Shown one piece after another: positions 3,562 to 6,690 of a stretch of DNA of 64,000 bases. The stretch is from Saprospiraceae bacterium (lineage in GTDB: Bacteria > Bacteroidota > Bacteroidia > Chitinophagales > Saprospiraceae): NCBI GenBank assembly GCA_025056735.1, contig JANWVR010000117.1, positions 1-64,000 on the forward strand. Reading direction: 5' to 3'. Positions within the stretch are counted from its first letter, which is position 1. Every line of letters starts with the position of its first letter. A program made the translations under genes and the position numbers. A model generated the notes under the pieces. It was not told where the DNA came from. It saw only the letters and a list, made by a program, of their open reading frames with translations, and did not search any database.

Positions 3562-6500
3562 TCAGGCGACGATGTTGACGATGCGCCCGGGCACGACAAT
3601 GATCTTTTTCACGCTGCCATTGCCCACGTGGCGCAGTACGAACTCCTGCTGCAGGGCGAGTTGTTCGATTTCTTCCTTGGTCGCAGTGGAGTCCACCTCG
3701 ATGTTGCCGCGGTGTTTGCCGTTGATTTGTACCGGATAAGTAACCTTATCGGCCTCGAGGAGGCGTTCGTCCCAGGTGGGCCAGGTGGCATCGCATACGG
3801 TGGTTTCGTGGCCGAAGCGATGCCAGAGTTCTTCGGCTAAGTGGGGTGCGAAGGGCGCCAGGAGCACGGTTATCGGCTCCAAAACGGCTTTTTTATGGCA
3901 CTTAAGCGCGCGCAGTTCGTTGGTCAGCGTCATGAAATGGCTGACACAGGTGTTTAGCGAGAAGCGCTCGATATCGTCGGTGATTTTCTTGATGGCAACG
4001 TGCAGGGCGCGCAGTTCCTGGCGCGAGGGTTCAGCGTCCTGCACGAGCCAAGTGTCGCCAGGACCTACGTAGAGGCTCCACAAGCGTTTGAGGAAGCCCT
4101 GCACACCGGTGATGCCTTTGGTGTCCCAGGGTTTGCTGTCCTCAATAGGACCGAGAAACATTTCGTACATGCGGTAGCAGTCGGCGCCATACTGTTCGAT
4201 GACGTCGTCAGGGTTGACCACATTGTACTTCGATTTGGACATTTTTTCTATCTCGAAGGCGCACAAAAAGCGCCCTTCTGGCCCGACTTTGAAGTTGGCC
4301 TTGTGGAACATAGGGCGCTGACGGGCGGCGTCTACGTTAAGCACGTCATCCGTAACCAGCGAGACGTCTACGCGCAGGCGGCTGAAACTATCGGGCGAGT
4401 ACTTAGCAGTCAGGTCGTAGGAGACGAACAGTTGCTCAATGTCGGGTACGTGGTCGCTCATGAAGAACGGTTCGCGGCTTTGGAGCGCCTGTCGTATTCG
4501 TCCGGCAGTTTTTTCGGGGTGATTGATGTGAGCAGCCAGTTCTTCGGTAAAAAGTACGAGCAGGCGCTTGCCATCGGTTTCGGCGGTTTGGCGCACCTGT
4601 TCGATTTTGTCGGCATTTTTCCAGGAGACGACTTCGATGGCTAAGTCGTTGACGGCGAAGGCAAAGTCGTAGGTGAAGGACTCTTCGGCGCGGTTTTTGG
4701 GAATGGGCATGGGGCCGAATTCGTCTAAGTAAGGTTTGAGTACTTTGATCCAGAGGTACTCTTCGTAGAAGGACTCTTTGGCTCGGAAGACGATGCTGGA
4801 GCGTCCCTGGATCATGCCCTGATTGGTGAGTTTTTTGGCGAACTCGCGCTCGGGCACGAGGCCGAGATCGTAGAGGAAATGGTTCCAGAATCGGCTGTAA
4901 AGGAGGTGGCCTACGGCGTGTTCGGCGCCGCCGATGTACCAGTCTACGCAGCGCCAGTATTCGAGGGCTTCTCGGCTGCAGAAGGCCTCGCTGTTGTGCG
5001 GGTCCATGTATCGGTACCAGTACCAGGAAGAGCCAGCCCAGCCAGGCATGGTGCTGTACTCATACTCATAGGCTTCGTCGGGCGAGGGGCGGTATCGCCA
5101 GTGTTGGGCGCGCGCCAGAGGGGGCTCGCCGGTTTCGGTCGGCAAGTATTTATCAATTTCGGGCAGTAATAAGGGCAGTTCGCTTTCGGGCAGCAGGTAT
5201 GGCACGCCCTCTTTCCAATAGATAGGGAGCGGTTCGCCCCAGTAGCGTTGGCGACTAAAGATAGCGTTACGCAGTTTGTACTGGATGCGCGCCTTGCCTA
5301 AGTTTTTTTCTTCCAGCCACTGGAGGAGTTTGGGCACGGCTTCTTCGTAGGTGAGGCCGTTGATGATGCCGGAGTTGATGTATCGGCCCTCTTTGGTGGG
5401 ATCGGCAGCCTGGTCGAGGTTTTTCTGGCTGTCTAAGATGGGCACTATGGGCAGGTCGAAGGCCTTGGCAAAGTTCCAGTCGCGCTGGTCGCCGCTGGGT
5501 ACGGCCATGATGGCGCCGGTGCCGTATCCGGCCAGCACGTAGTCGGCGATATAGATGGGGATGGCTTCGCCGGTGAAAGGATTGATGGCAAAAGCGCCTG
5601 TGTTGGCGCCGGTAACGCGCTTGACCTCAGAAATGCGTTCGCGCTCGGAGCGGGAGGCAGTCCATTTGGTATAGGCCTGTACCTCTGCCCATTGGGCCAG
5701 TGTCGTGATGGTGGACACGAGTTTGTGTTCAGGGGCCAATACCATGAACGTGGCGCCGTAGATGGTGTCTATTCGAGTCGTGAAGATTTCGATGAACAGC
5801 CCGTCGTGTCCCTGTACGGGAAAGCGTACGAGCGCGCCTTGCGAGCGGCCTATCCAGTTGCGTTGCTGGTCTTTAATGGCTTCGGGCCATTGGATTTCCT
5901 CCAGCCCGCGGAGGAGACGTTCGGCGTAGGCGGTGATGCGCATGCTCCACTGTTTCATGCGCTTGCGTTCTACGGGGTGGCCGCCGCGCTCGCTGACGCC
6001 GTCTTTGACTTCGTCGTTGGAGAGTACGGTGCCCAAGGCCGGGCACCAGTTAACGAAAGACTCCTCTGGAAAGGTCAGGCGGTACTTGAGTAAGAAGAGT
6101 TGCTTCTCCTTTTCGGAAAAAGCGTTCCACTCCTGCGCCGTGATGGCAGGCGTATCTTCATCGCAGGCGGCGTTGATACGGGTGTTACCCTCTTGTTCGA
6201 GGCGTTGAACCAAATGTTTTATAGGCAAAGCCTTATCGGCGTCGTAGTCGTAGTAATGCTCGAAGAGCAGGGAAAAGATCCACTGCGTCCATTTGTAGTA
6301 TTTAGGGTCGCAGGTGCGTATTTCGCGGCTCCAATCGAAGCCCAGGCCAACGTTGTCTAATTGTTGGCGATAGCGCCGGATGTTTTCCTCGGTAGAGACG
6401 GCCGGGTGGATGCCCATTTCGATGGCGTATTGTTCGGCGGGCAGGCCAAAAGCATCGAAGCCCATGGGGTTGAGCACGTTGAAACCGCGCAGGCGCTTGT

Positions 6501-6690
6501 AGCGCGCCACGATGTCGCTGGCAATGTAGCCCAAAGGATGCCCCACGTGCAAGCCGGCGCCCGAGGGGTAGGGGAACATGTTGAGGATGTAGAATTTAGG
6601 CTTATTGGGAACTTCTGAAACTCGATAGACTTGGTGTTTTTTCCACCATTCGCTCCATTTTTGTTCGATCGCGCGCGGTTCGTATTCCAT
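3562..6690 (-). CDS. leuS: Leucyl-tRNA synthetase with a large extra insertion
   Basis: Charges tRNA-Leu with leucine in the cytoplasm. The class I signatures are intact: HVGH at residues 48-51 and KMSKS at 816-820. The CP1 editing domain is present, with TTRIDTIYGATF at about 304-315 and GTGAIMAVPSGDQRDW at about 390-405, including the conserved editing aspartate. At 1042 residues it is roughly 100 longer than the 920-950 I expect for Bacteroidota. The excess lies at about residues 637-768, between the GMIQGRSS segment and the RVDVSLVTDDVLNVD segment, just before KMSKS, where bacterial LeuRS has its leucine-specific domain. That block looks like a degenerate nuclease fold (see findings). The frame is continuous. 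dnaN lies 130 nt upstream on the same strand; no promoter box is visible in between, so co-transcription is likely. Confidence 0.95.
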   Translation of the reverse strand: MEYEPRAIEQKWSEWWKKHQVYRVSEVPNKPKFYILNMFPYPSGAGLHVGHPLGYIASDIVARYKRLRGFNVLNPMGFDAFGLPAEQYAIEMGIHPAVSTEENIRRYRQQLDNVGLGFDWSREIRTCDPKYYKWTQWIFSLLFEHYYDYDADKALPIKHLVQRLEQEGNTRINAACDEDTPAITAQEWNAFSEKEKQLFLLKYRLTFPEESFVNWCPALGTVLSNDEVKDGVSERGGHPVERKRMKQWSMRITAYAERLLRGLEEIQWPEAIKDQQRNWIGRSQGALVRFPVQGHDGLFIEIFTTRIDTIYGATFMVLAPEHKLVSTITTLAQWAEVQAYTKWTASRSERERISEVKRVTGANTGAFAINPFTGEAIPIYIADYVLAGYGTGAIMAVPSGDQRDWNFAKAFDLPIVPILDSQKNLDQAADPTKEGRYINSGIINGLTYEEAVPKLLQWLEEKNLGKARIQYKLRNAIFSRQRYWGEPLPIYWKEGVPYLLPESELPLLLPEIDKYLPTETGEPPLARAQHWRYRPSPDEAYEYEYSTMPGWAGSSWYWYRYMDPHNSEAFCSREALEYWRCVDWYIGGAEHAVGHLLYSRFWNHFLYDLGLVPEREFAKKLTNQGMIQGRSSIVFRAKESFYEEYLWIKVLKPYLDEFGPMPIPKNRAEESFTYDFAFAVNDLAIEVVSWKNADKIEQVRQTAETDGKRLLVLFTEELAAHINHPEKTAGRIRQALQSREPFFMSDHVPDIEQLFVSYDLTAKYSPDSFSRLRVDVSLVTDDVLNVDAARQRPMFHKANFKVGPEGRFLCAFEIEKMSKSKYNVVNPDDVIEQYGADCYRMYEMFLGPIEDSKPWDTKGITGVQGFLKRLWSLYVGPGDTWLVQDAEPSRQELRALHVAIKKITDDIERFSLNTCVSHFMTLTNELRALKCHKKAVLEPITVLLAPFAPHLAEELWHRFGHETTVCDATWPTWDERLLEADKVTYPVQINGKHRGNIEVDSTATKEEIEQLALQQEFVLRHVGNGSVKKIIVVPGRIVNIVA

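Follow-up and report, generated by a model that had tools for sequence, protein, structure and literature searches.

A probable captured DUF559-type nuclease domain within the leucine-specific domain of leucyl-tRNA synthetase in part of the Saprospiraceae

Analysis of the window, that is, the whole 64,000-nucleotide stretch of DNA studied here (Saprospiraceae bacterium, assembly GCA_025056735.1, contig JANWVR010000117.1, positions 1 to 64,000), identified a leuS gene whose product, leucyl-tRNA synthetase (LeuRS), carries an additional nuclease-like domain inside its leucine-specific domain (LSD), just before the KMSKS signature. The features of this gene, with the basis of each assignment in brackets, are:

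3562..6690, reverse strand: leuS, leucyl-tRNA synthetase, 1042 aa (ORF, Pfam and similarity to solved LeuRS)
6538..6549, reverse strand: HIGH-type signature HVGH, residues 48-51 (translation, comparison)
4777..4806, reverse strand: LSD strand ahead of the insert, residues 629-638 (alignment, model)
4435..4776, reverse strand: inserted domain, residues about 639-752 (about 114 aa), DUF559/Vsr-type PD-(D/E)XK-like (alignments, model, profiles)
4666..4668, reverse strand: D675, acidic residue of the nuclease-like motif, in YDFAFA (alignment)
4633..4635, reverse strand: E686, acidic residue of the nuclease-like motif, in LAIEVVS (alignment)
4627..4629, reverse strand: V688, third catalytic position (alignment)
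4606..4608, reverse strand: K695, invariant lysine opening the helix behind the motif (alignment)
4246..4434, reverse strand: LSD remainder behind the insert, residues 753-815 (alignment)
4231..4245, reverse strand: KMSKS signature, residues 816-820 (translation, LeuRS alignment)

The class I catalytic, LeuRS editing and anticodon-binding domains were all detected by Pfam, and the protein resembles solved LeuRS both before and after the region preceding KMSKS; with these domains and the HIGH and KMSKS signatures, it has the full complement expected of a bacterial leucyl-tRNA synthetase. An earlier sequence-only reading of this DNA had described an intact frame of 1042 residues with both signatures normal, and the ORF and its translation bear this out. 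The genome yielded no second LeuRS, the three other matches being partial (31-33% identity, E 5e-8 to 1e-4), and the enzyme of the window must therefore charge tRNA-Leu. Regarding a possible intein, no splicing-domain family was present among the whole-protein Pfam matches up to E 1, and the LSD strands adjoin the insert directly on both sides in the LeuRS alignment.

The insert lies in frame between GRSSIVFRA and LFVSYDL, in the hairpin joining the first two strands of the LSD, which is otherwise complete. The sequence-only reading had placed about 130 extra residues at 637-768; the extra block is real, but alignment with 21 order-level LeuRS trims its borders to about 639-752. The remaining 16 or so residues (753-768) are ordinary LSD, and the block therefore adds to the LSD and does not replace it. 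Nor is it simply the ordinary LSD of relatives, a possibility that the same reading had raised against itself: residues 639-752 have no counterpart in any of the 21 order-level LeuRS covering the site, in which the flanking LSD strands align on either side (23 genomes were sampled and 22 LeuRS fetched, all except that of G042; L059, from G050, does not cover the site). Other LSD expansions, unlike the insert, were seen in the order-level relatives L046, L048, L049 and L054.

Within the genus of the window the insert is fixed, being present in all 34 LeuRS that cover the site (37 genomes including the window's own, with no LeuRS from G004 and G014 and a fragment from G028 that begins behind the site). 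A pattern scan of the species-genome collection returned 37 loci related to the insert, every one of them in a frame with the HIGH-type signature, the KMSKS signature or both. Most of these loci are filed under Saprospiraceae or under a wider group containing Saprospiraceae, and one under Thermoanaerobaculia. The latter, a contig of 7495 bases (L065, JAKLJF010000236.1) filed under a Thermoanaerobaculia MAG, encodes an insert-bearing LeuRS 72% identical to that of the window; its assignment is probably a binning error. Nothing related to the insert turned up in the viral, phage and plasmid collections, and no free-standing relative of the genus-type insert was found in these or in the species-genome collection.

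The motif residues were compared in 38 distinct genus-type sequences, obtained by pooling two overlapping alignments (A1 and A4, sharing for example L034/L092 and L036/L095) and excluding L097, which is cut by a contig end. The translation agrees with the residues named beforehand, D675 in YDFAFA, E686 in LAIEVVS and V688. A PD-(D/E)XK nuclease has a catalytic D and E and a third residue, usually K, two positions after the E. In sequence, D675 and E686 supply the first two and are kept in 38/38; the third residue is missing from all 38, position 688 being T in 29 and V in 9, so that the proposed loss of the third catalytic position holds throughout. Also invariant in all 38 sequences are E639, E643, K695, K708, R709, E716 and N723, and position 691 is K in 35, R in two and E in one. 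Purifying selection acts on the insert, somewhat less strongly than on the N-terminal part of the protein: dN/dS (Nei-Gojobori) was 0.051-0.135 for the insert in 8 of 11 pairs, the other three not being computable, and 0.018-0.063 for residues 1-637, these ratios being rough because several dS values exceed 1. Given its presence in every same-genus LeuRS covering the site and its low dN/dS, the insert is not a product of chance.

Outside the genus, inserts at the same LeuRS site were detected by genus profile, frame-length screen and combined profile, which together found them in 15 of 248 sampled genomes of the family, the LeuRS anchor being detected in 229 of the 248. Four of the 15 belong to the genus of the window (G000, G008, G011, G020); the others are G554 and G632 (g294), G539, G567, G483, G583 and G651 (g223), G473, G456, G523 and G636. 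The genus-type profile recovered the insert in G554, G632, G539 and G567 and, weakly, in G583; with the combined profile, eight further matching genomes match in other frames, either free-standing DUF559 or other proteins. LeuRS frame length was a poor proxy and was abandoned, since of 12 long or contig-cut frames (L107-L118) five have an insert and seven do not. Seven of the genomes, from five genera (G483, G583, G651, G473, G456, G523, G636), have the canonical D...E-x-K motif at this site, for example VDFALPKHKLAIEIKSS, with K at the position occupied by V688 in the window. D, E and K do not vary among the six canonical inserts that were aligned, whose identity to the first of them is 31-49%. 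The Pfam scan covered six of the seven, G636 being left out; four passed the DUF559 cut-off of 20.6 bits (L110, 26.0; L113, 27.3; L104, 30.0; L118, 23.3), L114 fell below it with 17.2 bits and L111 gave no match. None of the four genus-type inserts L100-L103 was matched by DUF559 in Pfam.

These same-site inserts link the domain of the window to DUF559. In hhalign comparisons the genus profile matched the canonical same-site profile with 97.3% probability (E 2e-11 over 68 columns, the motif D and E each aligned with their counterpart), and the canonical same-site profile matched a set of 15 canonical DUF559 domains with 97.8% (E 8.6e-13), as did the combined profile with 96.7% (E 3.7e-10). Compared directly with DUF559 the genus profile gave a weak result in unchanged register (4.7%, E 0.0086), against 0.4% (E 0.14) for the LeuRS editing domain as a single control. 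As the direct comparison is weak and the chain of profiles strong, the DUF559 link of the window copy runs through the same-site intermediates. No match to Pfam DUF559 (PF04480) was obtained for the window insert and the 18 genus members scanned, and none to DUF559 in its own genome at E 0.01; the restriction-endonuclease family DpnII-MboI was matched by 12 of the 18 members at up to E 10, with a best E of 6.5e-4. Scans of the insert against PHROGs, PADLOC and NCBIfam brought up no more than weak, scattered matches. Matches of the genus profile to G420 (phylum-wide, E 0.008) and G595 (family, E 0.004) were dropped as chance, the matched proteins resembling, by eye, adenylosuccinate lyase and an outer-membrane channel protein, respectively.

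Regarding the fold, the combined profile found the homing endonuclease I-Bth0305I first among solved chains (E 0.0092) and the canonical same-site profile found 3hrl first (E 0.0019); the DUF559 profile itself matches 3hrl at 1.2e-30 and I-Bth0305I at 3e-6. The genus profile alone gave three matches to solved structures (E 0.63 to 1), taken as chance. An AF2 model of residues 629-776, built from 37 sequences, had a mean pLDDT of 81.4, with model residues 34-43 below 50, and VIA-align ranked I-Bth0305I first for it (Z 7.6, rmsd 3.0, 81 residues, 22% identity), followed by two T. gondii mitoribosome chains (7.5 and 7.4), BsaWI (5.6), an unrelated phosphotransferase chain, 4tn5 (5.3), and Hjc (5.2). 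A Z below 8 may reflect merely a common arrangement of elements, and unrelated chains in the same list reach at most 5.3; a stronger point than Z alone is that the fold and profile rankings agree. Foldseek gave a best E of 0.36 for the domain model. The full-length AF2 model (mean pLDDT 56.8) was unusable for placing the insert relative to tRNA. The DUF559/Vsr-type origin put forward in the sequence-only reading is thus supported by way of the intermediates, four of six of which are DUF559 by Pfam, but not by a Pfam match of the window copy itself, and structure prediction, in which a confident hit was to count as support, puts I-Bth0305I first at a Z that stays under 8.

A DUF559-type nuclease origin of the insert therefore appears well supported from the profile comparisons, and the domain shares with DUF559 (a Vsr-like PD-(D/E)XK family with 3hrl as solved member) the order of elements and the register of the D/E motif. 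It differs from that family in that the window copy, without a Pfam match, lacks the E-V-D-G..H block of the aligned canonical DUF559 domains and is an internal domain of an essential enzyme. Similarly, I-Bth0305I (3r3p), the catalytic domain of a Vsr-like homing endonuclease, is the best structure match and the best combined-profile match, but is a mobile-intron protein, whereas the LeuRS insert sits in no visible intron or intein. DUF559 is said to be frequent among Vsr-like endonucleases (PMC12907096), and RAP domains are described as similar to it (PMC11079077). FASTKD4, which resembles Vsr and I-Bth0305I, is an RNA-binding protein, and the stability of its target mRNA was unaltered when the putative catalytic residue was mutated (PMC11879112). 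RAP domains and FASTKD4 are Vsr-like folds reported to be inactive and used on RNA (PMC11879112; PMC11079077); they are eukaryotic organellar proteins and are likened to the insert by description. LeuRS structures place the LSD near the tRNA, and its main function is called unclear (PMC6588880); for PMC13114784 the insertion in LeuRS is the editing domain. No account of DUF559 in a tRNA synthetase was found in the open-licence literature, which is weak evidence of absence.

The reading that best fits these observations, with a probability of about 0.57, is that of a captured DUF559 nuclease domain, probably inactive in the window, that has been retained as an appendix with a tRNA-binding or structural role. 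On this view some Saprospiraceae acquired, in frame in the first LSD hairpin of LeuRS, a DUF559-type (Vsr-like) nuclease domain; the lineage leading to the window would then have lost the third catalytic position, probably together with cutting, and retained the domain as a fixed part of the enzyme. Most likely the domain would now serve to bind nucleic acid or to support the structure, as an additional appendix of the LSD, which directly precedes KMSKS and lies close to the tRNA; in this it would be comparable to the inactive Vsr-like domains that bind RNA. The proximity of the LSD to tRNA and the literature on FASTKD4, RAP and DUF559 suggest by analogy that, as the sequence-only reading had proposed, the insert may plausibly touch the tRNA or support the fold. 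Weighing against this are the direct genus-DUF559 match of 4.7%, the Z of 7.6, the Foldseek E of 0.36 and the many close relatives without the insert; so does the constancy of D675 and E686, which folding alone would not be expected to preserve.

This constancy keeps a nuclease in play as a rival explanation, above all where the same-site insert is canonical, with invariant D, E and K. The insert could still be a nuclease, the window type being completed by the neighbourhood of T688/V688, by K691 or by K695 (which, like D675 and E686, is invariant in the 38 sequences), and could cut DNA, for example insert-less leuS alleles in homing without splicing, or RNA. That the nearest solved relative is a homing endonuclease agrees with this, as does the patchy presence of the insert, which on LeuRS trees computed with the LSD region removed needs eight changes, at least four of them forced by well-supported branches. 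Sister pairs are discordant, L101 with and L107 without the insert, and, both in g204, L103 (G567) with and L126 (G464) without; in genus g195 the insert is present in G636, while G455, G561 and G685 have a LeuRS and no combined-profile match. Some leuS genes are also mosaic, taking insert and LSD from one group and the core from another. In L033 and L034 (G018 and G026) residues 275-560 resemble another Saprospiraceae group (mean identity 0.59-0.65 versus 0.43-0.58 to the genus), and the insert, the LSD and residues 870-1042 are closer to the genus of the window; in L101, L102 and L103 a different LeuRS core surrounds an insert and LSD of the genus type. A tree of the insert itself, too short and with long branches, was set aside. 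However, the mosaic and patchy pattern fits both the exchange of insert and LSD as one module and repeated loss when the LSD was replaced, and such loss can produce patchiness too. Position 688 is T or V in every genus-type sequence, fixation in the genus has been long (34/34), and the genus type has no free-standing, viral, phage or plasmid relative in the collections searched; a domain that still cuts is considered unlikely.

DUF559 domains were also detected in frame elsewhere in the phylum, to which the combined profile led with matches in 31 of 395 genomes. In family f24 of the same class, presumably the Flavobacteriaceae, DUF559 was matched in 70 of 179 genomes. Fifteen of these 179 have it within LeuRS at a second site, where the chain enters the editing domain ahead of FTTRPDT (L136, L175, L176, L177, L179, L181, L182, L185, L187, L189, L192, L196, L208, L209 and L210); one more second-site LeuRS (L145, from G212) came from the phylum-wide combined-profile search. 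E-V-D-G is kept in 13 of the 15; its loss from L209 and L210 may parallel what is seen in the insert of the window. Pfam confirmed DUF559 in the frames of methionine synthase (MetH, L211) and RecG (L205), fused to HemD (L184), and in the LeuRS L208, L209 and L210; further in-frame or fused cases, found by family search and by eye, are methionine synthase L180 and L204, RecG L207 and HemD L178, L188 and L195. In the genus of the window itself, the isoleucyl-tRNA synthetase (IleRS) of G020 (L213:173-4279, 1369 frame residues) has a canonical DUF559 domain in frame (118.1 bits, Pfam). These several cases in different proteins show that DUF559 has been gained in frame more than once in the phylum.

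In the IleRS gene a 98-base double palindrome adjoins the DUF559 domain, and a second copy, 87% identical and without DUF559, lies further on in the same open frame; it is not a genome-wide repeat, as its two matches in G020 are both in this gene and four other same-genus genomes have none. In the L187 LeuRS two 41-base palindrome copies, 98% identical (1411-1451 and 1849-1889), flank the DUF559 segment, the only one of four regions checked to be positive, L175, L192 and L204 having no long flanking repeat pair beside DUF559. Rickettsia palindromic elements are likewise inserted in frame into working protein genes and are palindromic, as are the sequences adjoining some DUF559 inserts (L187, L213), but are not known to carry a nuclease. 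That palindromes carry the DUF559 domains is only a suggestion.

The occurrence of in-frame DUF559 in several unrelated proteins also suggests tolerance rather than use, and the insert of the window might be a passenger left behind by an in-frame mobile insertion, which the permissive loop tolerates and whose only constraint is the need to fold. The many relatives without it, and a dN/dS somewhat above that of the N-terminal part, are in keeping with this. A dN/dS of 0.05-0.14 and invariant surface-type residues (E643, K695, K708 and R709 in the 38 sequences) nevertheless ask for more than tolerance, and no loss was seen in any same-genus LeuRS covering the site, which makes a mere passenger improbable too. 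A wider proposal is that DUF559 nucleases home without splicing, as in-frame modules of essential proteins in the phylum (LeuRS at two sites, IleRS, MetH, RecG and HemD), spreading by cutting insert-less alleles and recombining. The LeuRS insert would then still be armed (D-E-K) in g213, g223, g263, g196 and g195, and the window's genus would have domesticated it. If true, the proposal would explain both the patchy presence within genera and the mosaic leuS genes; it is regarded as a speculative and rather unlikely reading. An ordinary, merely enlarged LSD without nuclease ancestry is very improbable, for although the LSD is variable, with the other expansions mentioned above, and the window insert goes unrecognised by Pfam, LSD strands align on either side of it, Pfam assigns same-site inserts from other genera to DUF559, and structure and profile searches agree.

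Thus, on the preferred reading of a captured and probably inactive domain, nuclease domains seem to be built into essential proteins and later kept for other use. The second LeuRS site and the IleRS, MetH, RecG and HemD cases suggest that DUF559, a widespread domain of unknown function, repeatedly enters essential proteins in frame. In the Saprospiraceae, one site of one essential synthetase has both a nuclease-type domain with its full motif and a conserved one in which the motif is broken, and with both states at a single LeuRS site the domestication of a nuclease fold becomes directly testable.
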